From a virus, in the IMG/VR virus record IMGVR_UViG_3300025030_000367, positions 1 to 27,443 of that record: DNA of 27,443 nt. The stretch is one strand, 5' to 3'. Below the pieces are notes generated by a model. The model saw only the letters and a program-made list of their open reading frames with translations. It had not been told where the DNA came from and made no database searches. Position numbers and translations under genes: made by a program. Positions within the stretch are counted from its first letter, which is position 1. Each line of letters starts with the position of its first letter. Below, piece by piece: positions 2,488-24,004 of this stretch.

Positions 2488-5400
2488 CGTACCCTCCCTG
2501 AAGCAAGTGCGAACTCTCCACCACGATTCATTGAATTAAGTATTTCAGCTTTGGTTGTTTCGTTGGCTCTTTTGACTATTGAAGTAATCTGTTGCTCATT
2601 CAATGTAGAGTTACGAGCGTCAATGTTATAAACAGGCGCGTAAGTAGAGCCGCCGAGCTTGCTAGCCGGTGTTATAACACCATTTACACCGGGAGTAAAG
2701 TATTCTGGACCCTCGCTCGCACGATTTTCGTTGACAATATAAGTTTGCCCTGCGATTACCGGTCCACCGTTGGCGCGACCTCCTGCGATGTTCATTCCCT
2801 GGATCGCACTACCGGCCATAACTAAACCAATCGACATTGCTTCATAAGCACTAATACGCGATATTGCAGCAGCTTCCATTGCAGGACTTAACGGACCAGC
2901 CATCTGAGCAGCGGCGATTGCTGCGCTCTTAGCTACAGCAGAGTTCATCATAATTCTTGAGATAGCAATTGAAGTTTCCATTGCCAAGATAACAACTTGC
3001 ATCGCTTTACTATCAGCAAAACCTTGCTTCGCTATGTTCAAAGCATCTTCAGAAATAGATAAACCTAACGCTTCTTTCTGAGCAGCGTACAACCTATCCA
3101 TTTGAAGCATTTCTTCGTTAAACTTCTGCTTATCAATAAGCTGCGTTGAATACATATCACGCAACTTCTGGCTTTCAGCATCGTATTCGCTATCAATACC
3201 TGCAATCTGAGAGCCGTAATTAGCGCCACCGAAAGCAGATTGCATCTTACCGGCGTTATCAAAAATACGCTGTTTATCTCTAACTTGACCTTGCAATACA
3301 TCAAAAGCAGATAGCTTATCGCGCTCGGCTCTTTCTTCATCAGAAAGCGCATTATACTCAGGACTTAATTTTTCAAGATCACGCCTTGCAATAGCAACCT
3401 TCTCATACTGTTCTGATAATTCTAAAATTTGAATTTTAAGTTCTTCAAACCCTCTAATTTCCTTATACGTAGCTTCGCCAATTCTAGCGTTATCAATCAA
3501 AAATTTACGTGCTCTCTCTTCAAGCGTCCAATCGTTCTGCATTGCATTTTCAGCGATTATTGCTTCAGTAACAGCTTTTGTATAACTTTTAGCAACTTTC
3601 AAAATACCTACTTCTTGTCCAGCTAACGATTTTTCAATTTTATCATGAAAAATCATAGATGCTTCTTCGCCCAATTCTTTATATCTTTGTTTTATAACTT
3701 CAAGATCAACCCCATTTTGCTCCAAAAGTAATTTTTTACGAGCATCTAACTTATTATAAGCGTTTATTTCAGCTTCACCAGATGCTTTGATAAATTCAAG
3801 CTGCTTAGATAAATTCATCATGTCTTGCATTGATGATTGTTTTGCAGTATTCTTCTCAAATTTAGCAGCATAATCTTTAGCGGATTGTTCTTCAGATGCA
3901 TCAAGTTTTGCTATTTTCTGATTTCTTAACCACTCTATCGGATCACCATCAAAACCCTGCTTCTTCTGAAACGCCGCAAATGATTTACGTTCAGATTCAC
4001 TCATTGAATCATAAGCGGTCTTCAAATTCATTATCTGAGTTTCAATCTTAGCTAACTTAGAGTCGTAGTTGTCTAGCTCAGCACTATCAACCAAGTTGTT
4101 AAACATACCTGCAAACTTATTGTAGTCGGACACGCTTGCTGCTTCATCACCCCCTGCTCCTTTCGGCGCTTTAGGAATCTTGATAGCATTAGCAGCAACA
4201 GCATCAGCCTTCATTGCGTTTATAGCGTTCTGATTTATTGACAAACCCATTGAATTAACAATACTCGCAGCATCAGCATTATTACCAGCGGTCTTTTTAA
4301 CAGCACCTGCTTTAATCCACTCAGCAATTTCAGCATTAGAAGCTAAAGGATTGGCTCTAAGAATCTTTTCCAAGTCATAAGTAGTGAGTCTATCAACACG
4401 CTCACGTTGTAAACCAGCAGAAAGCGAACCTTTAGAACCGTCAACAGCACTAGCTTTAATGTCCTTAAGTCTAGATTCCATTTCACCGGCTTTAAAATAC
4501 TCTTTGCCGGTATAAGCAGCCGCTGCAATCAAACCAGCAACCAATATATTCAAACCAGCGGTAGCTAAAGTAATTTCAGAAGTAAGCGTAGTCATTGACG
4601 TAGCTACTTTGATAATACCGGCAGAAATACCTAACCAAATAGCAGGTTCGGCAAGATACGAAGCAGCTTTGCCCACATTCCATAGGTACTCAGCCGCTAC
4701 TTTAGCCCAACCGAAACCTTCTTTCAGCATTGCTTGAATCTTTTCTTTGTTATCGTTAGCCTGCTTCGCAATCTCCTTCATCTGAATAACTATCTCTTCA
4801 AACCCTTCCTTCAATCCACCGCGCAGCACTTCATCCCTGATAGTGCTCATGGTAGACTTAACAGTAGTCCAAAGCGAATCAATGTCACCACTAGCAGCAG
4901 CGTAACCGACAAGCAGCGGTCCAAGCTTCTCAAGTACATAACCTGCATTACCTGTTTCAGCGGCGATTTTCTTCCAATCAGCCAAATGATCTTTCAAAAG
5001 CGGATCAATTGCTTTCAACTGCCTAAACAGCATATTTGTAGGCTTATCTTCGCCGTTTAGTAAGCCGCGTATCTCCTGGCTGAACTGCATGTCAGGGTTA
5101 GACATGCCAGCAGAAATAGTAGCCAAGGCGTTAGCAGTGTTCTGATAGCCTTCAAGTTGTTTCTTGTTGTTAATGTCAATAAACACACCCTGGTTAACAA
5201 AGGCGTCGTTCATCAATTGAAGTTGTTTATAGGATGCAATAGTGTGAGCATCCATCTTAACAAGAACGTTCTGAACTGCTTCAGCGTATTTTTTATTCTC
5301 CTGGTATGCTTTACCAATATCCGCTACACCGCCGCCCATAGAGGTAATAACAGCGGCGTTTTTGATCATTGAAGACTGAAACGTTTCAATAGCGTCAACG

Positions 5401-7097
5401 GCAGTGCTAGGCAAGCTACCAATCAAGCTCATTGTCTGATTGATCAAAGAGTACAGAATCTGAACTTTGGCAATCGCTGCAATGGAAGCTAAGCTTAGGA
5501 GATTAATGCTATTAGTGTGCTTGTTTGCAGGCGAAGTAGTACCTTCAATTTCATCAAGTTTACGCTTCATTGCAGCGTGAGCTTGCTTGATTTCATTTGC
5601 ACTCGCTACACCAGAAGCTTTTATCTTTTCGAATGCAGCAATAACCTTAGCGCGTTCGACTTCGATATTCAGCGAGGATTTCAGACCAAGAACGTCGAAA
5701 GAGCCTTGAAGTCTGTCACCAGCCAAACCTTGATTCTTTGTTGCATAAACATTTGCTTCAGCAGCTTCTTTGGCAACTAAAGCGGCACGTTTAGCAGCTT
5801 CAACAGCCATATCTCTAGTGCGTTTTTGGTCAAGCATTACTGCTTCATCATACATCTTAATCTGTGCTTGAATCTTGTCATGCGCTAAACGCTTATCCAT
5901 TAACACAGCTTCGTCATACATCTTGATTTGCGATGCTATTCTATCAGCGTTACTTTTACGCTCTTGCTGTTCTATTTCAACAAACATACGCTCATACATA
6001 GAAGTTCTATCGACAACTTCTTTCTGAGCAGCAGCGGCCTTTTCAGCAGCGGCCTTTTCAGCGGCAATTACAGCCTGTCTTTCTTTCAAAAACGCTTGGT
6101 CAAAAAGCCCTGCGTAAATAGCATCTCTATCAGCAACTTCTTTAGCAGTAGCCGCAATCTTATCAGCAGCAGCTTTCTCTTCAGCAATAACACCTTTACG
6201 CTCTTGCATGTACGCTTCATCGAAAAGGCGAGCATACATAGCTTCACGCTCAGAAACTTCTTTCTGAGTAGCAGCAATCCTATCTCTAGCAGCCTGCTCA
6301 GCTACGGTAAGAGACTCTTTTTCAAGGCGCTGTAAAGTATCCTGCATTGCCGTATAAGCACGTTCAATATCAGCAGGCGCTGCACCACTGCTTTTAACGT
6401 TATTGAAATTATCAATTACACTTTGGCGCTCTTTGTTTATATCGTCAGTTGATCTAATTCCTAAACCTTTAAAGGAATTAGAAAGCGACTGCTCTTTCAC
6501 CATCTTCTGCATTTCAGCATTAACAAGCTCAAGCTCAGAACGCAAGTTTTTAACAGCTTGTTCCGCACCAGTAAACTTGCTAAAAGCTGCGTTTAACACG
6601 TTAACAGAAGCTTCACCAGCTAATTGCATTGCTACAAAGTCGCGCTGAGCCTGATCCTTCATTTCCTCCATTTTAGCAATGGCGGTTTGGCCCATTTCAC
6701 CAAATTTAGTGCTAAGCCTGCCCACACTAGCACCTGAAGCATCAAGTACGCCAGGAAGCTGCGAAATCTTGGCCCTAGCAGCCGCTTCAGCGCGTTCAAT
6801 TTCCCCGAACGAGGTAACACCTGACTCTCTTATCTTGACGAAAGAAGCTATGGTAGCGAAAGCCGCGCTTTCAATAGATTTTGCGGTTGTGGTTCCAAGG
6901 GAATTAAATTCACGCTGAAGACGGTCAATCGAAGTCATTCCGGCTTCAGCCATCTTAGCAATATACTTTTCGCCTTGCTGAGCACTCCTTACAGTAATGT
7001 TAGCCCATCGCTCAACAGATTGACCGGCTTTACCTAAGTCATTCTGAAAGCGCGCAGTATCGGCAGATATGCTTATTACAAGATCGCCCAGTGACAT
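2484..7097 (-). CDS. Tail tape measure protein
   Basis: At 1537 aa this is the largest gene. It sets tail length and is ejected with the DNA. The N-terminal 520 residues are mostly helical and coiled-coil (ISADTARFQNDLGKAG at the start). Hydrophobic segments follow around residues 530-565 and 830-880, then a long helical region and a glycine-rich C-terminus containing GPEYFTPG, typical of tape measure proteins. Tandem 40-residue repeats lie at 272-384 and a degenerate 50-residue unit occurs three times (about 60-114, 212-258, 468-518). The ATG is preceded by AAGGGGTAAATT. That Shine-Dalgarno sequence overlaps the -35 box of a promoter firing the other way into the nuclease gene. No lysozyme or peptidase motif was noticed. 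Confidence 0.93.
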   Translation of the reverse strand: MSLGDLVISISADTARFQNDLGKAGQSVERWANITVRSAQQGEKYIAKMAEAGMTSIDRLQREFNSLGTTTAKSIESAAFATIASFVKIRESGVTSFGEIERAEAAARAKISQLPGVLDASGASVGRLSTKFGEMGQTAIAKMEEMKDQAQRDFVAMQLAGEASVNVLNAAFSKFTGAEQAVKNLRSELELVNAEMQKMVKEQSLSNSFKGLGIRSTDDINKERQSVIDNFNNVKSSGAAPADIERAYTAMQDTLQRLEKESLTVAEQAARDRIAATQKEVSEREAMYARLFDEAYMQERKGVIAEEKAAADKIAATAKEVADRDAIYAGLFDQAFLKERQAVIAAEKAAAEKAAAAQKEVVDRTSMYERMFVEIEQQERKSNADRIASQIKMYDEAVLMDKRLAHDKIQAQIKMYDEAVMLDQKRTRDMAVEAAKRAALVAKEAAEANVYATKNQGLAGDRLQGSFDVLGLKSSLNIEVERAKVIAAFEKIKASGVASANEIKQAHAAMKRKLDEIEGTTSPANKHTNSINLLSLASIAAIAKVQILYSLINQTMSLIGSLPSTAVDAIETFQSSMIKNAAVITSMGGGVADIGKAYQENKKYAEAVQNVLVKMDAHTIASYKQLQLMNDAFVNQGVFIDINNKKQLEGYQNTANALATISAGMSNPDMQFSQEIRGLLNGEDKPTNMLFRQLKAIDPLLKDHLADWKKIAAETGNAGYVLEKLGPLLVGYAAASGDIDSLWTTVKSTMSTIRDEVLRGGLKEGFEEIVIQMKEIAKQANDNKEKIQAMLKEGFGWAKVAAEYLWNVGKAASYLAEPAIWLGISAGIIKVATSMTTLTSEITLATAGLNILVAGLIAAAAYTGKEYFKAGEMESRLKDIKASAVDGSKGSLSAGLQRERVDRLTTYDLEKILRANPLASNAEIAEWIKAGAVKKTAGNNADAASIVNSMGLSINQNAINAMKADAVAANAIKIPKAPKGAGGDEAASVSDYNKFAGMFNNLVDSAELDNYDSKLAKIETQIMNLKTAYDSMSESERKSFAAFQKKQGFDGDPIEWLRNQKIAKLDASEEQSAKDYAAKFEKNTAKQSSMQDMMNLSKQLEFIKASGEAEINAYNKLDARKKLLLEQNGVDLEVIKQRYKELGEEASMIFHDKIEKSLAGQEVGILKVAKSYTKAVTEAIIAENAMQNDWTLEERARKFLIDNARIGEATYKEIRGFEELKIQILELSEQYEKVAIARRDLEKLSPEYNALSDEERAERDKLSAFDVLQGQVRDKQRIFDNAGKMQSAFGGANYGSQIAGIDSEYDAESQKLRDMYSTQLIDKQKFNEEMLQMDRLYAAQKEALGLSISEDALNIAKQGFADSKAMQVVILAMETSIAISRIMMNSAVAKSAAIAAAQMAGPLSPAMEAAAISRISAYEAMSIGLVMAGSAIQGMNIAGGRANGGPVIAGQTYIVNENRASEGPEYFTPGVNGVITPASKLGGSTYAPVYNIDARNSTLNEQQITSIVKRANETTKAEILNSMNRGGEFALASGRVR
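5814..6284 (-). repeat. Tandem 120-bp and 66-bp coding repeats in the tape measure gene
   Basis: Residues 272-311, 312-351 and 352-384 are successive copies of a 40-residue unit: DRIAATQKEVSEREAMYARL, DKIAATAKEVADRDAIYAGL and EKAAAAQKEVVDRTSMYERM, each followed by a variant of FDEAYMQERKGVIAEEKAAA. Two shorter 22-residue units follow at 385-428, sharing QIKMYDEAV. The repeats are charged and helical and lengthen the tail ruler. Antisense reading frames across this stretch are artefacts of the repeat. Confidence 0.85.
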
Positions 7098-7107
7098 AAT
7101 TTACCCC

Positions 7108-7136
7108 TTGACTTTCTGCCTCATTCAACGTATATT
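7108..7136 (+). promoter_or_regulatory. Consensus-like sigma70 promoter giving a leaderless nuclease mRNA
   Basis: TTGACT (7108-7113), a 17-nt spacer and TATATT (7131-7136) form a near-consensus promoter. Only seven bases separate the -10 box from the ATG at 7144, so transcription should start at or beside the A of the start codon. The -35 overlaps the Shine-Dalgarno of the divergently read tape measure gene. Confidence 0.75.
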
Positions 7137-7143
7137 CCGAGAC

Positions 7144-8028
7144 ATGATACCTACTAGAGAAGAATTGTGCGAACTATACACTAATCAACGCCTTACCTCA
7201 AGGCAGATTGCAGAAATTTTTAATACTAACAAAACCTACGTTCTACGTTGGTTAAAAAATTATAATATACAGACAAGGTTGTCCCATACAGGATTTGATA
7301 TTGATGTTAAACGTCCTTCAAAAGAAGAACTTTACAAATTTGTTCACGTTCAATTTTTATCACTAAGTGAAATAGGTAGCATGTATAACGTAGATAGAAC
7401 TGCTGTTCATTATTGGCTAAAGAAATACAACATCCCTGCCAAACCTCAATACTTGAATCGTTCAAACATTCCTTCCAAAAATGACTTGATTGAACTTTAT
7501 TTAAATTCTAACATGTCTTCTGAGCAGATTGGCGCCAAATTTAATTTACCTAGAAAAGTTATAACAAACTTATTAGCAAAATACGAAATAGAAATAAGAC
7601 CTTCTGGTTTCACAGGAAGAAGGTTTGCTTGCAAACACGGTCATGACGTTCAATCTTCATACGAATTAGCCGTAGATAACTGGTTATTTGAAAACAATAT
7701 TGATCATGAATACGAACCATTAATTACCTCAAATCGAAGACTAAAAGCTGATTTTTACGCCAACGGACTTTATATTGAAGTTTGGGGTATTAGTAAAAGC
7801 CCTAAATATGCAGCACGGAAACAAGAAAAAATTGCACTTTATAAAGAGTTAAATTTAGAATTACTTGAAATAAGCTGGCATGATTTTGCAACTAAGACAA
7901 ACGAAAGATGGAAACATAAGCTTGAGGCTGAATTTGGTTTTTACAAAATACACAACATCGACGTAACAACTCTTCCAGGTTATGTCAAACTAACAGACGA
8001 AGAATTATTGTACGGATTATCCGATTAA
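7144..8028 (+). CDS. Free-standing homing-type endonuclease: three HTH repeats plus PD-(D/E)XK-like nuclease
   Basis: This 294-aa protein lies opposite to the tail genes around it. Residues 1-45, 58-100 and 108-152 are three helix-turn-helix-like repeats of the form 'P(T/S)(R/K)xxLxxLY…S(x)xQIxxxF…WLxxYxI', probably a sequence-reading DNA-binding array. Residues 160-250 look like a compact PD-(D/E)XK-related nuclease: GHDVQSSYELAVDNWL with E174, LKADFYANGLYIEVWG with D203 and E212, then KYAARKQEKIALYKE. Similar modules occur in EDxHD/Vsr-like phage homing endonucleases. The start at 7144 is chosen because an upstream in-frame ATG (7069) would lie inside the tape measure gene and upstream of the promoter. 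The 3' end overlaps the gp10-like gene by 12 bases. It probably cuts copies of this locus that lack the insert. Confidence 0.7.
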   Translation: MIPTREELCELYTNQRLTSRQIAEIFNTNKTYVLRWLKNYNIQTRLSHTGFDIDVKRPSKEELYKFVHVQFLSLSEIGSMYNVDRTAVHYWLKKYNIPAKPQYLNRSNIPSKNDLIELYLNSNMSSEQIGAKFNLPRKVITNLLAKYEIEIRPSGFTGRRFACKHGHDVQSSYELAVDNWLFENNIDHEYEPLITSNRRLKADFYANGLYIEVWGISKSPKYAARKQEKIALYKELNLELLEISWHDFATKTNERWKHKLEAEFGFYKIHNIDVTTLPGYVKLTDEELLYGLSD

Positions 8029-17087: not shown

Positions 17088-17849
17088 TTAATTCATTTCC
17101 AGTTCAAGCAGTTTCAATCTTGCTTTTGCATTATCAGTTTCAATCTGAGCTTTTCTTTTCTCTTCAGCTACGCGCTCAGTTTCTTCTTCTTCTTCGGCCA
17201 GTTCAGCAGCAACGCGTTGTTCCTCTTCGAGTGCAGCAGTTGCTTCGTCAGCTTTGCGTTGTTCTTCGGCTTGCTGTTGTTCAGTTCTAAGTTGTTCAGC
17301 TTCTTGTTTCTTTTGATTCAATGAGCGTACTGCACAAGAAGTAGAAGTGTAAGCAGGATATGTCACAGGAGAAACATCATACAGTTGCTCAACCTGATGA
17401 ATAGTTCTAATCCATAAACCATCAGAATCTTCTTTCCAATGATCACCGTCAGCAGCTACGCGAAACCCAAACGAACATTGATTAACATCACCACGACGCA
17501 TTGAAATTTGCAGGTCTTTCACATACGAAATTTCCATATCAGGATCAATTTCAAAACGAAGACCTTTTTCATCTTCGAAAACACGCAGCGTACCTGCTGC
17601 TGTTCTACCTAAAATTTTGTCAGGATTATGATTAAACAAACCCCTAATATCCGAAACGCCCAAAGCTTTCTTAAAGCATCCAGGCATTAGAATTTCTCTA
17701 AAACCACCTAGATTCTCAGAAAGGCTATTGAAGTTAGCAGCATAACCATCCATAACAGGAGTTTTGGTGTCGCCGTTTTCTTTGACGCGCATTTGCACAA
17801 CATGTGTGCGTCTTTCGACATTTTCATCTTTTTCAATGTCAGGCTTCAT
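17088..17849 (-). CDS. Prohead maturation protease (HK97 gp4-like) with charged C-terminal extension
   Basis: This 253-aa protein has a protease domain covering residues about 15-165: VMDGYAANFNSLSENLGGFR, then ILMPGCFKKAL, GLFNHNPDKILGRTAAGTLR with H74, and MRRGDVNQCSFGF with S126. His and Ser match the catalytic pair of the HK97 prohead protease family (U35), which removes the capsid delta domain and then itself. Residues 174-253 form an unusually long Glu/Gln/Ala-rich helix (EQQQAEEQRKADEATAALEE and onward), likely a coiled coil. ATG follows AAAGGAGTGATAT; the gene starts four bases after the portal stop. Confidence 0.93.
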   Translation of the reverse strand: MKPDIEKDENVERRTHVVQMRVKENGDTKTPVMDGYAANFNSLSENLGGFREILMPGCFKKALGVSDIRGLFNHNPDKILGRTAAGTLRVFEDEKGLRFEIDPDMEISYVKDLQISMRRGDVNQCSFGFRVAADGDHWKEDSDGLWIRTIHQVEQLYDVSPVTYPAYTSTSCAVRSLNQKKQEAEQLRTEQQQAEEQRKADEATAALEEEQRVAAELAEEEEETERVAEEKRKAQIETDNAKARLKLLELEMN

Positions 17850-17852
17850 ATA

Positions 17853-19172
17853 TCACTCCTTTGTTGCGGAAGGTTCTTTAGGCTCAACAACTTTACTAAA
17901 CTGACTACCTGCCAACCTCGCAGGGAAAATACCGGAAGGAACAAATACTTCATCCGATTCAGGTCTATTGTCAGGACTTTCACCGCTATTGCGGCGAATA
18001 TCATTAGGCGACCAAGAAGCAGTTTCAAACCTCGACTTGTTATAAGCAGCCTGTGCAGCCATATCGCCGCGCATCAAAGCATTAAAGTCAAAATTGAAGT
18101 AGTAATCTTTTTCAGAGTCGTACATCAAATCTACTTTTAATCTTTGTTCCCAATTCTCAAACTCAGGTTGCATATTCAAAGTAATAAACATTTGCATTAC
18201 TACTTCGGCACTTGCAAAGGTTTGATTCTTATCACCGGAACGATGAATCAGCATCATCGGTACGTCTAAGAAGCTGCAAATATCCTCAACCTGAAATTTT
18301 CTCGACTCGATATATTGGCTGTCTTGCATAGTCATACTTAAACTACTTATGTCCATGCCGTTTTCAAGAATAATTGTTTTGTGGGAATTACCGACACCAG
18401 TGTACTTATCCAATTGAGCTTTCAGACGATCAAATGCAGGATCATCAAGCTTAGCCGGATGCTTAAATACTTTTGCTATCTGAGCACCGTTAGTAAACAA
18501 CCTTGCACCTTGTTCTTCCATTGCCATTGCAAGGCCGACAGATTCAGCCATCAACTTAACTACAGATTTGCCCACAATACCGTTGTCACTGTATCCTCTA
18601 ATATGCAGAATCTCTTTCGCAGTGAAAATCTCGCTTTGACCATTCACCGGAAAATACTGATAGTAGAGCTTCGATCCACGCGGCGGCGTAGGCGAATTGT
18701 CATACATAAAATACGTTGCACCTTCAGGAGTAATCACAAACGGAAACACTCTGTCAGGATGCAACGGAATCAACTGATTGATACCACGTCCAGGCGTTGA
18801 CTGAATGTAGTTATAGAAGTTACCGCGCAACATCTTATGAGCTTGGCCCATTAAACGCCAATCAAAAGACGTTTGCCATTCATTAGGCTTATCGTGCATT
18901 TGCTTATAAAGCCTATGGCTCTTAGCAATTTTATGACCACCTTCAGGCAATTCCTGCATTACATGCAAAGGAAGCATTGCAAGAGTCAACGCTTTACGAT
19001 TAACACAAGCGTAAACAGTGCTGATCTTTACCGCAGTATCAGCATTAACAGTCTGACTTGAAGCAGTATTAGGCATATAGCCCATGTAGCCAGATAACGC
19101 AGGATCACCTACAAGCATAGACGGCTGTACTGAAGCGCGAGTTTCCCCGCAAATTCTTTCAAGCCAAGTCAT
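17853..19172 (-). CDS. Portal protein, HK97 family
   Basis: This 439-aa protein has family landmarks in order: AVKISTVYACVNRKALTLAM near residue 45, LPLHVMQE, then LMGQAHKMLRGNFYNYIQST, EILHIRGYSDNGIVGKSVVK, LENGMDISSLSMTMQDSQYI and FQVEDICSFLDVPMMLI at about 290-305. The C-terminus contains NDIRRNSGESPDNRPESDEV. It forms the dodecameric ring through which DNA is packaged and ejected. ATG follows AAGGAGTCTAA and overlaps the previous gene's stop as ATGA. Confidence 0.95.
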   Translation of the reverse strand: MTWLERICGETRASVQPSMLVGDPALSGYMGYMPNTASSQTVNADTAVKISTVYACVNRKALTLAMLPLHVMQELPEGGHKIAKSHRLYKQMHDKPNEWQTSFDWRLMGQAHKMLRGNFYNYIQSTPGRGINQLIPLHPDRVFPFVITPEGATYFMYDNSPTPPRGSKLYYQYFPVNGQSEIFTAKEILHIRGYSDNGIVGKSVVKLMAESVGLAMAMEEQGARLFTNGAQIAKVFKHPAKLDDPAFDRLKAQLDKYTGVGNSHKTIILENGMDISSLSMTMQDSQYIESRKFQVEDICSFLDVPMMLIHRSGDKNQTFASAEVVMQMFITLNMQPEFENWEQRLKVDLMYDSEKDYYFNFDFNALMRGDMAAQAAYNKSRFETASWSPNDIRRNSGESPDNRPESDEVFVPSGIFPARLAGSQFSKVVEPKEPSATKE

Positions 19173-19752: not shown

Positions 19753-20037
19753 TCAGAAGTTAGGATGAATTGCGTTGCGAGCTATGCTTTCTTGTACTGT
19801 TTTAACGATGAACTCAGCAAGTTGAGGTTCGGTCATATCGCCTAATCTCTTGGTTACAGTTCCTTGGACATTTATATCACAGCCATGCTTATCAAGTAAA
19901 CCGCCTTGCTGGTTCAACATCTCCATTACTTCAGCAATCATTTCAGAAGCAACATCATACTTGCGTTCACAGGTGATATGCTCAGTTCTGTAGCGTTTCA
20001 AGTAACCTAGTAAAACGTGAGCTTCGGGTCTAGTCAT
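19753..20037 (-). CDS. Hypothetical 94-aa protein
   Basis: The product starts MTRPEAHVLLGYLKRYRTEH and contains YDVASEMIAEVMEMLNQQGG and GDMTEPQLAEFIVKTVQESI. It is predicted helical and cytoplasmic. I recognise no family. The start at 20037 is chosen because AAGGAGGAAAGAA precedes it; it overlaps the upstream gene's end by 8 bases. A longer in-frame reading with a hydrophobic N-terminus up to 20142 lies over the neighbouring gene and lacks such a site. Confidence 0.6.
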   Translation of the reverse strand: MTRPEAHVLLGYLKRYRTEHITCERKYDVASEMIAEVMEMLNQQGGLLDKHGCDINVQGTVTKRLGDMTEPQLAEFIVKTVQESIARNAIHPNF

Positions 20038-20269
20038 TTCTTTCCTCCTTATTAGCAAAACTCCAACCGTTAGGAAAGCTGCGCCGAACAACTCTAATCG
20101 CCAACAAATCTTGCAAGCGATGCAAAGAAGTTGTAAATTCAATGTTCTCCATAGGATGATCTTTAGGAAGCTTGCTGTAAATTCGATAAGCTTTGACTAA
20201 AGCATTCATGCACATTTGTTCGTCAAAGGTTAGCCCAGTAACAGGACTTGCGGTTTCTCCTGCTTTCAT
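20030..20269 (-). CDS. Small phage protein of unknown function
   Basis: This 79-aa helical protein reads LTFDEQMCMNALVKAYRIYS and IEFTTSLHRLQDLLAIRVVR, then RSFPNGW. The 'F…lH.lQ.ll..R..rr..P' block resembles an unnamed small protein found in other tailed phages near structural genes. ATG follows AAGGAGGTGAGAA. It ends overlapping the next gene by 8 bases. No function is known to me. Confidence 0.55.
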   Translation of the reverse strand: MKAGETASPVTGLTFDEQMCMNALVKAYRIYSKLPKDHPMENIEFTTSLHRLQDLLAIRVVRRSFPNGWSFANKEERND

Positions 20270-20280
20270 TTCTCACCTCC

Positions 20281-20823
20281 TTAAGTTGAAATTATAGTAA
20301 ACGGACCTTTAACACCAACTAAAACACTCTCAGCAGCTTCAAGCGCAATTGTAATTCGTTCTTCAACCTTCAGCTTCATAGCTTTAGTTGTAAACAAACT
20401 ACCTTTAGCAGCTTCGTCACCGCAACCAACTACATCATAATCTTTGCAATTAATTATGCTAAAATCATCTTGCATTCGATACAGCTTATCTTTATAGCCA
20501 ATAAGAAAAGTACCGCCTTGCTCAACACCGTTATTCACTTTCGTAAAGCCGCCGTCTTTCAAACATTTCCGAACAGTTTCAACAAAAGTAGTTCGCATAA
20601 ACTTATCCATGTTAACAGTAGCTACAGGTTGGCCTTCAGGTAACGCAAGCGAATATTCAAGCAAATCCAGCATCCTGAAGCTAGTAGTCCCGCCTATAAC
20701 AAATTCGCCAACTCTAAACACTTTAGAGTGATTGCAATTCTCATAAACATATCCGTTTGAGCCGCAACTATCACCGCCCAAATACACTTTACTTCCGTTA
20801 AGCAAACCAATTATGCAAGTCAT
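20281..20823 (-). CDS. HslV/proteasome-like Ntn hydrolase
   Basis: This 180-aa protein begins MTCIIGLLNGSKVYLGGDSC. If the initiator Met is removed, Thr is residue 1. Asp then falls at 17 (LGGDS) and Lys at 33 (NHSKVFR), exactly the catalytic numbering of proteasome beta subunits and HslV (Thr1, Asp17, Lys33). FVIGGTTSFRMLDLLEYSL matches the strand-helix following the active site. VVGCGDEAAKGSLF at 131-144 corresponds to the 'GSG' loop, with Cys in place of Ser. No ATPase partner (HslU) is in the window. The start at 20823 is set by GGAGGTG eight bases upstream and by the ATGA overlap with the small zinc gene; an ATG at 20841 overlaps that ribosome site. The substrate could be phage assembly proteins or host proteins. 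Confidence 0.75.
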   Translation of the reverse strand: MTCIIGLLNGSKVYLGGDSCGSNGYVYENCNHSKVFRVGEFVIGGTTSFRMLDLLEYSLALPEGQPVATVNMDKFMRTTFVETVRKCLKDGGFTKVNNGVEQGGTFLIGYKDKLYRMQDDFSIINCKDYDVVGCGDEAAKGSLFTTKAMKLKVEERITIALEAAESVLVGVKGPFTIIST

Positions 20824-20987
20824 TTCTTCAACACCTCCCACTGTTCTTCAGTAAGCCAAGTTCTAGCATTACAAATAGAACAATTAACATGCATAATTGG
20901 TTGATTGCTCATTTGAGCGTTGTACCTGAATTCAGGCTTACCACCTCTACCGCTGTTCGCTATCCAGTTGCATTTGTGTTCAGACAT
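20820..20987 (-). CDS. 55-aa zinc-finger-like protein coupled to the Ntn hydrolase
   Basis: The product starts MSEHKCNWIANSGRGGKPEF. Its pairs H4-x-C6 and H33-x2-C36-x2-C39 (MHVNCSICNARTW) suggest one bound zinc. AAAAGGAGAAAATA precedes the ATG. Its stop overlaps the Ntn hydrolase start as ATGA, so both are made together. I recognise no family; an adaptor or cofactor for the hydrolase is a possibility suggested only by the coupling. Confidence 0.6.
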   Translation of the reverse strand: MSEHKCNWIANSGRGGKPEFRYNAQMSNQPIMHVNCSICNARTWLTEEQWEVLKK

Positions 20988-21016: not shown

Positions 21017-22867
21017 TTACAGTACGCGTAATATCTCCTGCTCGCCTCTTGCCGCTCTAGCGTTGTATGAATCACCTGTATCTTCATCATTAGCCATCAA
21101 GCGAGCCAAAGCCATGATTGCTCCAACCGCGCCATCTATTTTATTTGCATTTGTAGTCTTAGTTGGAAAGTAATGTTTTACATTTCCACCGGAACGAGAT
21201 TGTTTCAGAACAACATTCCCGCACATCCATTCAAACATTTTGTTTCCGTCATGAAGAAAAGCATTATCAGTAACCATAGCCTCTAGTTCCTTACACGGCT
21301 CACTGATGTTCGCAGGCGACTGCGTAAATTCAACACACTCGAACGAAGCCCATTTCTGAATATTAGAAATAAGCATTGATGCTTCACGCGGGTCAAACAC
21401 AAGTTCTTGAATGTTAAACATACCATTCAACATTTTAAGGTCATCTTCAACAACATTAAAGTCAGTACGTTCACCTTCTGTAGCAGTAAGCAGACCTTCT
21501 TTCTCCCATAGTTGATAATGCTGGTTTTCTTTCTTATTAACCGTTGCTTCAGGTAGATAAAACTTGGAAAAACACACCACGCGCTTATTAGTCTTGCGAT
21601 TCCAACTACACGTAGGATTTTCGCCTAGACTGTTAGCACAGTTGTATCGTTCGTCCTGGTAAACAGCTTTGGCTCCGCATCTAGGACAAACTTCAAGCTT
21701 TACACCTTCTATCTCAAACAGTATTTCAAGAGCAACAACGTCAATTTTGCTCGCCAAGTCCAAACCTAAATAACATTTACTTCCAGCAAATTGCTCAAGC
21801 TTAAAAGAAGGATTACCGCAAGCTTTAAACTTAATCATATCAAGCCACGCACGACCAGCAGATTGCCACATGTTCAAATGTTTAGTTAAAAGTATGTTTC
21901 TTTCGCTCATTTTAGTTAAAGCGTCATTGTACTTACCTCTCAAATAATTCTCGTTCACTGAAACCCCAAGATTTGGATTAGCCCTTTTCCATACCTCAAA
22001 ATCTTCATATGAATCTTCTGGATCAATTCCGAAAATAACAGCGAACAAATTATCTTCAACAAGAGTACCTTCTATAACTTTCACAGCGTTTAAATACATT
22101 TCATAGCAAGGTGAACTGATATCTACACCAGCGGTAGTTATCACGCAAAGGAGTGGCTGCGATCTTGCCCCCATTCCAGTTGACATACTATCATACAAAG
22201 CACTTGTCTGTGCTTCGTGATACTCGTCAATCAGCGCAGCGTGAGGCGACTGCCCATCAGAAGCCTTTCCTACAACTGGCTCAAACCTACTCATGTCATC
22301 ATTTCTATACACTGACGTAGGATTACGCACTGTACCTGTTAAAGTAAGTCCAAACGCCTCAACTAAATCTGGATTTAACTTACACATAGCGTATGCGGGT
22401 TCGAAAACGCACATGGCTTGCTTTTCAGTTTGAGCACCAGCGTAAACTTCGGCTCCTGGTTCATTGTCACAAAAGGCCATATATAGGCCTATGCCAGCCG
22501 CAGCGAGGCTCTTGCCCGACTTTCGAGGGAGCATCCAAAAAACTTTATTAAAACGTCTAAGATTATCTTCTTTACGTTTCCAACCAAACAAAGTTGTGTG
22601 AAGAAAAAGCTGATGATTTTCTAATACAAGTAACGTACCTCTCCAAGACCCCTTTGTGTGGGGTAACTTCTCCATAAAACGAGCGTGTCTATTTCCAGCA
22701 GCAACGTCAAAATAATAAGGAAAATCTTCGTCATTTTGACGTTGCAAATCACTCAAATGTCGCTGATAAGCTAATTTTTCAAGCTTTGAGGCTTTACGAT
22801 TAGGAAGTTGATCGTTAACAGCAGCAATACAATATTCGTAAGATAGTTGACAATGATCCCTACTCAT
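21017..22867 (-). CDS. terL: Terminase large subunit (ATPase and nuclease)
   Basis: This 616-aa packaging motor has Walker A at residues 115-120 (RKSGKS in VFWMLPRKSGKSLAAA), Walker B at 212-218 (LIDEYHE), and the coupling segment CVITTAGVD at 241-249. The RNase H-like nuclease domain carries D370 (YLGLDLASKIDV), D492 (VFDPREASM) and D578 (KIDGAVGAIMA). A four-cysteine zinc ribbon (C394-x2-C397, C410, C420) is inserted between the first and second nuclease acids, where related terminases have a short loop. The ATG lies 8 bases inside the end of the preceding HNH gene. Sequence type resembles the HK97/P27-associated terminases. Confidence 0.95.
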   Translation of the reverse strand: MSRDHCQLSYEYCIAAVNDQLPNRKASKLEKLAYQRHLSDLQRQNDEDFPYYFDVAAGNRHARFMEKLPHTKGSWRGTLLVLENHQLFLHTTLFGWKRKEDNLRRFNKVFWMLPRKSGKSLAAAGIGLYMAFCDNEPGAEVYAGAQTEKQAMCVFEPAYAMCKLNPDLVEAFGLTLTGTVRNPTSVYRNDDMSRFEPVVGKASDGQSPHAALIDEYHEAQTSALYDSMSTGMGARSQPLLCVITTAGVDISSPCYEMYLNAVKVIEGTLVEDNLFAVIFGIDPEDSYEDFEVWKRANPNLGVSVNENYLRGKYNDALTKMSERNILLTKHLNMWQSAGRAWLDMIKFKACGNPSFKLEQFAGSKCYLGLDLASKIDVVALEILFEIEGVKLEVCPRCGAKAVYQDERYNCANSLGENPTCSWNRKTNKRVVCFSKFYLPEATVNKKENQHYQLWEKEGLLTATEGERTDFNVVEDDLKMLNGMFNIQELVFDPREASMLISNIQKWASFECVEFTQSPANISEPCKELEAMVTDNAFLHDGNKMFEWMCGNVVLKQSRSGGNVKHYFPTKTTNANKIDGAVGAIMALARLMANDEDTGDSYNARAARGEQEILRVL

Positions 22868-23945
22868 TTTCGCACCAATCTATGTCAGTTTCTTTTGAAA
22901 ATTTTAAAAGTTCGGCCTCTTTAGCAGCCTTGTCAGCACGTCGTTTCTCCCAAGATTGGCGCATTTTAGCTCTAGTTTCTTCAGTTACTATGCGAGTCTG
23001 ATTTGACTTAATGATAGCCGCTCTTTGCTCAGAAGATATCACAGTATTACCGTGTTTACCTTTTCCAGACGCTGACATTTTAGCACGCGTTTCATCTGTA
23101 ACAGGTCTTGTTCTGTTTGAATGAGCTATTTTAGCCCTTATTTCATCCGTATATTCCCAAGTAGGAGCCTTTCCCTTTTTAACAATACTCATATTTTTAC
23201 GCCATTCTTCAGAAAAAGGAGGTCGTTTCACACCTTTTCTAGCTTTGCTCATATTAGCTCTATGAGTATCAGTGAGAGACACACCTTTTCGCCTTATACT
23301 CATTGCTATTCTCATTTCAATAGGTAACTTAGTTCCTTTTTTAGAAGCGCCTAATTTTCTAATACGCTCTAAAGCTTCAGGCGTTCTATTGATTTCACTT
23401 AATTTTTTTCTAGTCTCTTCGCCAACTATTCTACCTTTCCCTGCTTTGCTTATTTTTTCTCGTTGATCAGCATTTAAAGAAATACCCAAACAACGTTTCC
23501 TATTAGCAATTGCAATATTCACAGCGACATGAGGCGGTCTAGGCACACCCTTTTGTAGAGCACTCATTCTTTGTTTAAGCCAACTGTAAATTTTATTATT
23601 CGACCTATTGAGATCACGACTTTTACCAGTCATGTAAACAGCAGCAAATAACAACTTCTTATTTGAAGGAAACAATTTAACTAAAAGCTGATGTGCAATA
23701 TAATGTTCTTCAGGAGTTAAAATTGCATAATTTTCGTCACAATTTGCACCACCTAAACATTTTGGAATAACATGATGCTTTTCTGTATAACTATCAACAA
23801 CTCTGTCTTTAGCTCTAACTACAAGCTTGATATAATGACTTGCCCAATGCCTATGCTTGATAGATTCAAAAAATTCTTCAATCGAATTATAAGTTTCAGC
23901 TACTTTTTCAACAACAGGAACATCTTCAATAACAAATTCTTGCAT
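22860..23945 (-). CDS. HNH homing endonuclease with many NUMOD3 repeats, inserted before terL
   Basis: This 361-aa protein has an HNH core at about residues 56-90: EKHHVIPKCLGGANCDENYA, then LTPEEHYIAHQLL (H57, H58, N72, H81, H85). From about 120 to 345 it has roughly ten NUMOD3-type DNA-binding units, such as ISKAGKGRIVGEETRKKLSE, MSKARKGVKRPPFSEEWRKN and MSASGKGKHGNTVISSEQRA. This is the architecture of free-standing phage homing endonucleases. The start at 23945 follows AAAGGGGTTGTT; an upstream in-frame ATG at 23981 lies in a hairpin loop. Its last 8 bases overlap the terL start. A structured leader and promoter-like site precede it. Confidence 0.85.
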   Translation of the reverse strand: MQEFVIEDVPVVEKVAETYNSIEEFFESIKHRHWASHYIKLVVRAKDRVVDSYTEKHHVIPKCLGGANCDENYAILTPEEHYIAHQLLVKLFPSNKKLLFAAVYMTGKSRDLNRSNNKIYSWLKQRMSALQKGVPRPPHVAVNIAIANRKRCLGISLNADQREKISKAGKGRIVGEETRKKLSEINRTPEALERIRKLGASKKGTKLPIEMRIAMSIRRKGVSLTDTHRANMSKARKGVKRPPFSEEWRKNMSIVKKGKAPTWEYTDEIRAKIAHSNRTRPVTDETRAKMSASGKGKHGNTVISSEQRAAIIKSNQTRIVTEETRAKMRQSWEKRRADKAAKEAELLKFSKETDIDWCENE

Positions 23946-23964
23946 AACAACCCCTTTAAATAGA

Positions 23965-24004
23965 GAAAGCTCCCTACACAATGGCAGTTGCGTAGGGAGC
24001 TTTC
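23965..24004. other. 13-bp hairpin in the homing endonuclease leader
   Basis: GAAAGCTCCCTAC (23965-23977) pairs exactly with 23992-24004 over a 14-nt loop. It ends 19 nt before the endonuclease start codon. Weaker inverted repeats (AAGCACT with AGTGCTT, CAGATT with AATCTG) lie further upstream. It may limit read-through or control translation of the endonuclease. Confidence 0.7.

Follow-up and report, generated by a model that had tools for sequence, protein, structure and literature searches.

A predicted proteasome-like threonine peptidase in a swappable slot between the terminase and portal genes of a phage

Results

A proteasome-like hydrolase encoded among phage head genes

The 27.4-kb viral fragment analysed here as a whole (the window) encodes a proteasome/HslV-type Ntn hydrolase, an assignment given by both its residues and its fold. 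The best overall explanation, which we consider likely, is that the protein is a predicted ATP-independent, ring-forming threonine peptidase of PHROG 1040 that resembles BPH and is carried as optional accessory cargo. The initial annotation of this DNA had also recognised a proteasome/HslV-type hydrolase, and that part of it stands. The partnership with HslU and the zinc-protein adaptor that it considered do not, which leaves its remaining option, that the enzyme works alone. The family is catalogued and widespread, and the window protein adds one member to it. Phage proteasome-like proteases having been catalogued already, what is new here is the demonstrated swap of the cassette that holds the gene and the existence of carriers without HslUV. 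The literature searched yielded neither an experimental study of this phage protease family nor an assay of a phage proteasome-like protease. The protease gene and the adjoining gene for a 55-aa Cys/His protein lie between the terminase and portal genes, in a head-gene block that also has a major head protein (Table 1).

Table 1. Positions of the protease gene, its slot and the surrounding head genes in the window
Feature	Position	Strand	Remarks
N-terminal-threonine hydrolase gene, proteasome-like (PHROG 1040, most likely AAH-type)	20281..20823	(-)	180 aa
55-aa Cys/His microprotein (His4, Cys6, His33, Cys36, Cys39)	20820..20987	(-)	constant 5' flank of slot; possible zinc-binding protein
ATGA stop/start overlap (TGA of the 55-aa gene within the protease ATG)	20820..20823	(-)	where DNA homology to the sister phages stops
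Exchanged cassette (protease gene and 79-aa ORF)	20053..20818	(-)	single unrelated genes instead in L018 and L019
79-aa ORF, the cassette's other cargo gene	20030..20269	(-)	PHROG 13916/21487, uninformative annotation
99-aa gene (MTRPEAHVLLGYLKRYR...)	19753..20052	(-)	constant 3' flank of slot; kept in L018 and L019
Terminase large subunit, upstream of slot	21017..22867	(-)	phrog_9, E 2.8e-142
Portal protein, downstream of slot	17853..19172	(-)	phrog_12, E 1.4e-90
Prohead protease (Peptidase_S78), ordinary maturation protease	17088..17849	(-)	PF04586, E 1.1e-46

Sequence, fold and conservation of the protease

The protease ORF (N-terminal sequence MTCIIGLLNGSKVYLGGDSCGSNG) starts with an ATG at 20823, and its 180-codon translation begins MTCIIGL. 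When the threonine is numbered as residue 1, with the methionine removed, Asp and Lys fall at positions 17 and 33, exactly as first described. The other recognisable parts are Gly43, which we aligned by eye with what we take to be the oxyanion glycine of HslV and the proteasome (HslV numbering), and Gly132-Cys133-Gly134 within the GCGD loop (residues 132-135), where Cys133 stands at the place at which HslV and the 20S proteasome have their active-site Ser. The protein matched the PHROG 1040 profile ('peptidase HslV family') over its full length (residues 1-178, E 6.7e-19). In the single-sequence Pfam search PF00227 (Proteasome subunit) reached 17.2 bits, under the gathering cut-off of 22.4, and among the NCBIfam models only arc_protsome_B was matched (17.9 bits), the HslV model TIGR03692 not being among the matches.

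An AlphaFold2 model built from a 100-sequence alignment had a mean pLDDT of 94.8 and a pTM of 0.90 and adopted the alpha-beta-beta-alpha Ntn fold of the proteasome-like clan. Its best structural match was BPH (5ovt, Z 21.2, 2.3 A over 169 residues), with further matches to HslV (Z ~19) and to 20S beta subunits (Z ~18-19). The family profile, compared with PDB sequences, likewise placed BPH first (3.5e-8) and matched HslV at 4.3e-7. The model has helices at residues 49-58 and 69-90, the latter being a 22-residue H2, and its final element is a strand after H4.

A tblastn search of 50,697 phage records found relatives of the protease in 175, T5-like phages, Geobacillus virus E3 and Moorella phage MTATph1 being examples. 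Collection scans gave 80 loci in viral contigs and a further 80 in 84,980 bacterial and archaeal species; the query was a 4-member alignment, the full 15-member alignment having no conserved stretch of sufficient length. Across 174 aligned homologues Thr1 was kept in all but one, which has Ser, and Lys33 in every one, although these two counts are partly built in, some homologues having been recruited by motifs that contain T1 or K33. Asp17, which was part of no search motif, was present in all 174, as were Gly43 and Gly132. Thr1 also occurred in 79 of the 80 bacterial loci, a set recruited without the T1 motif, and all three residues were present in the 12 phage records obtained by plain tblastn from the annotated collection. 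Because the Thr1/Asp17/Lys33 spacing is kept across the aligned homologues, it is not a product of chance. The cysteine of the GCGD loop, initially singled out as unusual, proved to be the family consensus (Cys in 150/174, Ser in 24/174). In the homologues the start codon stands immediately 5' of Thr1; the family therefore has no propeptide. A Met-Thr start is a normal substrate for methionine aminopeptidase. On this conservation the Thr1/Asp17/Lys33 chemistry appears well supported, and the protease is probably catalytically competent. Of the two outcomes that the initial annotation had named as refuting it, a fold other than Ntn and a Thr1 that varies among homologues, neither occurred.

Two further conserved features were seen. 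The stretch TSSFRMGQ (positions 45-52) is nearly invariant, with S47, F48, R49 and M50 each in at least 167 of 174 homologues, and an acidic residue, E100, is present in 156/174, in the loop that follows H2 (about residues 91-103). The first of these bears on the alternative that survives best, which we nonetheless consider rather unlikely, namely that the protein acts with high specificity, as an amidohydrolase or transpeptidase, on one defined host or phage protein and has no general peptidase activity. TSSFRMGQ lies close to where proteasomes form their substrate pocket, and the proteasome-like family does include a ligase, connectase (PMC8665760). However, the helical insertion between S3 and S4 of connectase is absent from the AlphaFold2 secondary structure of the protease, and no constant genomic partner was seen among the neighbour clusters listed, which were limited to head and metabolism genes of phages and to host genes common to close relatives. 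A general, BPH-like threonine peptidase remains the preferred reading.

Phylogenetic position and variants of the family

Genomic relatives of the protease came mainly from Azospirillum, Rhizobiales, Streptomyces and Frankia, and also from Firmicutes, whose members clustered with viral contigs in a quick tree. In the midpoint-rooted tree, whose root is uninformative, the window protease fell among 17 rows that form a group of phage sequences only (SH-aLRT 96), apart from the chromosomal homologues. Its nearest kin in the tree were L021, L023 and L024 (SH-aLRT 99). The L021 protein is the closest homologue, at 76% identity, and its gene also lies between terminase and portal; the L023 and L024 proteins are 65-66% identical and are encoded away from head genes, in phages of 113 kb and 59 kb.

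In Vibrio and Pseudoalteromonas phages (L010, L012, L013 and L017, 4001 to ~5170) the protease carries an extra C-terminal tail of 110-210 aa. Three of these four tails end in YPHNIG, FPHNIG or APNIG followed by a helix-like stretch containing Leu and Lys that by eye looks HeH/LEM-like; the tails scanned had no Pfam match. The Azospirillum homologues (L134, L122 and L151, ~5001) adjoin genes for NAD synthase, glutamyl-tRNA synthetase and a DJ-1/PfpI-like protein, a setting that suggests a chromosomal rather than a prophage location.

HslU is not a general companion of the protease

The window contains no hslU gene, in line with what had been reported from the sequence. Among 26 bacterial genomes that carry a relative of the protease, HslU and HslV both scored over the curated cut-offs in 15, and neither was found by these cut-offs in the other 11. 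The latter are from three Frankia, one Actinomadura, five Streptomyces, one Chitinophagales and one Chloroflexia, some of these assemblies being incomplete. Because 11 of 26 carriers are without HslU, it is not a general requirement of the family, and wherever HslU does occur among the carriers it is accompanied by its own HslV. The idea that the family as a whole partners with HslU thus did not hold. An AAA_2 (Clp/HslU-type) protein scored over cut-off in just one of the 22 searched phage or viral records that carry a protease relative, and in 0 of the 12 annotated phage records; hence no phage-encoded unfoldase of the Clp/HslU type accompanies the protease. On these gene distributions, dependence of the protease on HslU appears unlikely.

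That the protease ring instead borrows HslU, or ClpX, from the host in the manner of HslV is very unlikely in our view. The fold shared with HslV, the match of the family profile to HslV and the 15 HslU-positive carriers would fit such an arrangement, but those 15 already pair HslU with an HslV of their own, 11 carriers have neither protein over cut-off, and the related BPH did not bind HslU in a pull-down, a genome search and pull-down having yielded no partner unfoldase for it at all (PMC5777263).

Genomic context differs between small and large phages

The protease family often adjoins terminase and portal genes in small phages. Many large phages place the gene in nucleotide-metabolism or replication regions, often near thymidylate synthase, DHFR, ribonucleotide reductase or PhoH, and these neighbours hint at early or middle expression there. 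Since the neighbours differ between large and small phages, they imply no single stage of infection. The position within the packaging and head block, together with the frequency of terminase and portal as neighbours in small phages, would suit a protein of the virion or of its morphogenesis, or a relic without catalytic activity. We regard this as highly improbable, since the catalytic residues are all intact family-wide, many large phages keep the gene outside the head region, and sister phages with the same head genes lack it.

The separate prohead protease that had been noted in the window is real, but it is an unrelated serine protease, and the presence of a second peptidase is not in itself special. 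Two endonuclease-like genes were also seen in the window. One, of the NUMOD/HNH homing type (22860-23981, (-)), separates the gene for the small terminase subunit from that for the large one and overlaps the latter at its start; the other, of HTH/HNH type (7069-8028, (+)), lies on the opposite strand and overlaps the beginning of the tape-measure gene.

The protease gene is swapped for unrelated genes in sister phages

Upstream of the protease gene is the 55-aa gene, whose ATGA overlap with the protease start is exactly as first reported. Its product matched no Pfam or PHROG family. The AlphaFold2 model was of low confidence (pLDDT 75, pTM 0.50), too uncertain for a zinc-ribbon fold to be assigned. 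The protein is also encoded, at 93% identity and with the Cys/His residues conserved, by L018 and L019, two viral contigs of a single metagenome. A third apparent IMG/VR carrier, L020, was rejected because it shares only the stretch EEQWEVLKK, by chance, within a protein of 173 aa. The 50,697 phage records contained no relative of the 55-aa protein, and when the head-region DNA was searched against phages there was no match.

Comparison of the window with these two sister contigs revealed a sharply bounded exchange. Their DNA is 92-95% identical to the window through the 55-aa gene up to the ATGA; similarity is then absent from ~20806 to 20052 and resumes at 20052/20051, in the 99-aa gene. Behind the same ATGA, L018 has a gene of 142 codons and L019 one of 114 codons; both are unrelated to the protease and matched no Pfam family. 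The 94.9-kb L019 record contains no member of the protease family anywhere. This comparison marks the protease gene as an optional, exchangeable cargo in a swappable slot. The sisters keep the ATGA with other genes, and L021 has no 55-aa homologue upstream of its protease gene; the overlap therefore belongs to the end of the 55-aa gene, with the protease gene as exchangeable cargo. A count of ATGA starts over the protease homologues was uninformative because the Thr codon starts with A: practically every member begins ATGA, and most of the upstream frames are non-genes.

Least probable of all is the earlier proposal that the 55-aa protein is an adaptor or regulator forming one module with the protease, for although the ATGA overlap implies translational coupling in the window phage and the Cys/His residues are conserved, L018 and L019 have the same gene and overlap before unrelated genes, L021 keeps the protease between terminase and portal with no such gene upstream, and 0 of 50,697 phage records have a relative of the 55-aa protein against 175 with one of the protease.

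The sister contigs themselves differ in their relationship to the window. Over the whole terminase L018 is the nearer (86% DNA identity), and L019 is a mosaic whose terminase (545-2290) is ~53% identical to that of the window and whose portal (5150-6469) is 92.5% identical. L018 also encodes two small proteins (2476-2862 and 4165-4593) with a CxQACxAxLxD-type motif that is reminiscent of C39-like peptidases, with no Pfam match; one of them occupies the slot held by the protease in the window.

A speculative further reading, to which we give a low probability, is that the slot behind the 55-aa gene is a dedicated site for swapping effectors. The microprotein gene and its ATGA would form a fixed, translationally coupled entry into which host-directed proteins of different kinds would be plugged by different phages, in the window a threonine protease that works by itself against a host or defence protein.

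Discussion

Proposed mode of action

We propose that the window protease works as a BPH-like threonine peptidase. The host methionine aminopeptidase would remove its start methionine and expose Thr1, which would then attack peptide bonds with the help of Asp17, Lys33 and the backbone of the oxyanion-hole Gly43, as in the proteasome and HslV. By analogy with BPH, the subunits may self-assemble into a closed ring. Such a ring would cleave only peptides and unfolded chains, with neither ATP nor an AAA+ unfoldase. In the phage its gene is a dispensable accessory, with peptide clearing, removal of a host or defence protein and quality control during late expression as candidate roles. We infer its catalytic activity, its ring assembly, its independence of ATP and its benefit to the phage. 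Because family members persist in Streptomyces and Frankia genomes that lack HslUV, and in phages that lack an unfoldase of the Clp/HslU type, a threonine protease working without an AAA+ motor is the natural hypothesis. The swapped cassette shows the gene to be optional in this group of phages, whose carriers and non-carriers offer a natural comparison for any benefit that it brings.

Comparison with known systems

BPH (PDB 5OVS, 5OVT, 5OVU) is the top match of the window protease in both the structural and the PDB profile comparison. It has no propeptide, forms a tetradecameric double ring of two heptamers with a long acidic pore loop, binds epoxomicin and has no partner unfoldase that could be found (PMC5777263). 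The window protease likewise has no propeptide and no known unfoldase, but the two proteins share only ~18% identity and differ in genomic distribution. With HslV (ClpQ) the protease shares Thr1/Asp17/Lys33, the oxyanion Gly, the G-S/C-G loop and a structural similarity of Z ~19. It differs in not matching TIGR03692, in having no hslU alongside and in a family whose carriers commonly do without HslU, and we rejected an identity with HslV on these grounds.

Fuchs, Alva and Lupas described 22 new proteasome homologues, including PPH and AAH (PMC8665760). PPH, which occurs in phages and their hosts, is ~140 aa long and lacks helix H2 (PMC8665760). The window protease is also phage-borne and proteasome-like; at 180 aa, with a 22-residue H2, it is not PPH. 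It belongs to the same family as the PHROG 1040 members of T5-like phages, Moorella phage MTATph1, Geobacillus virus E3 and Psychrobacter phage D'Alembert. The MTATph1 protein is 42% identical to it over the full length, with the same triad and, again, no propeptide. The annotated PHROG 1040 phages carry the gene mostly beside thymidylate synthase, DHFR or ribonucleotide reductase, whereas in the window it lies between terminase and portal. AAH is found in alpha-proteobacteria and Actinobacteria and in many phages, and has been carried by phages into Firmicutes and Bacteroidetes (PMC8665760). The family studied here has a similar range (Azospirillum, Rhizobiales, Streptomyces, Frankia, phages and Firmicutes), and the window protease has the AAH-like compact core H1-H4, with no propeptide, S12 or C-terminal H5. 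Matched to the published description by taxon range, fold elements and lack of a propeptide, the PHROG 1040 family most likely corresponds to AAH. A point of difference is that the window protease lies in a phage-only branch.
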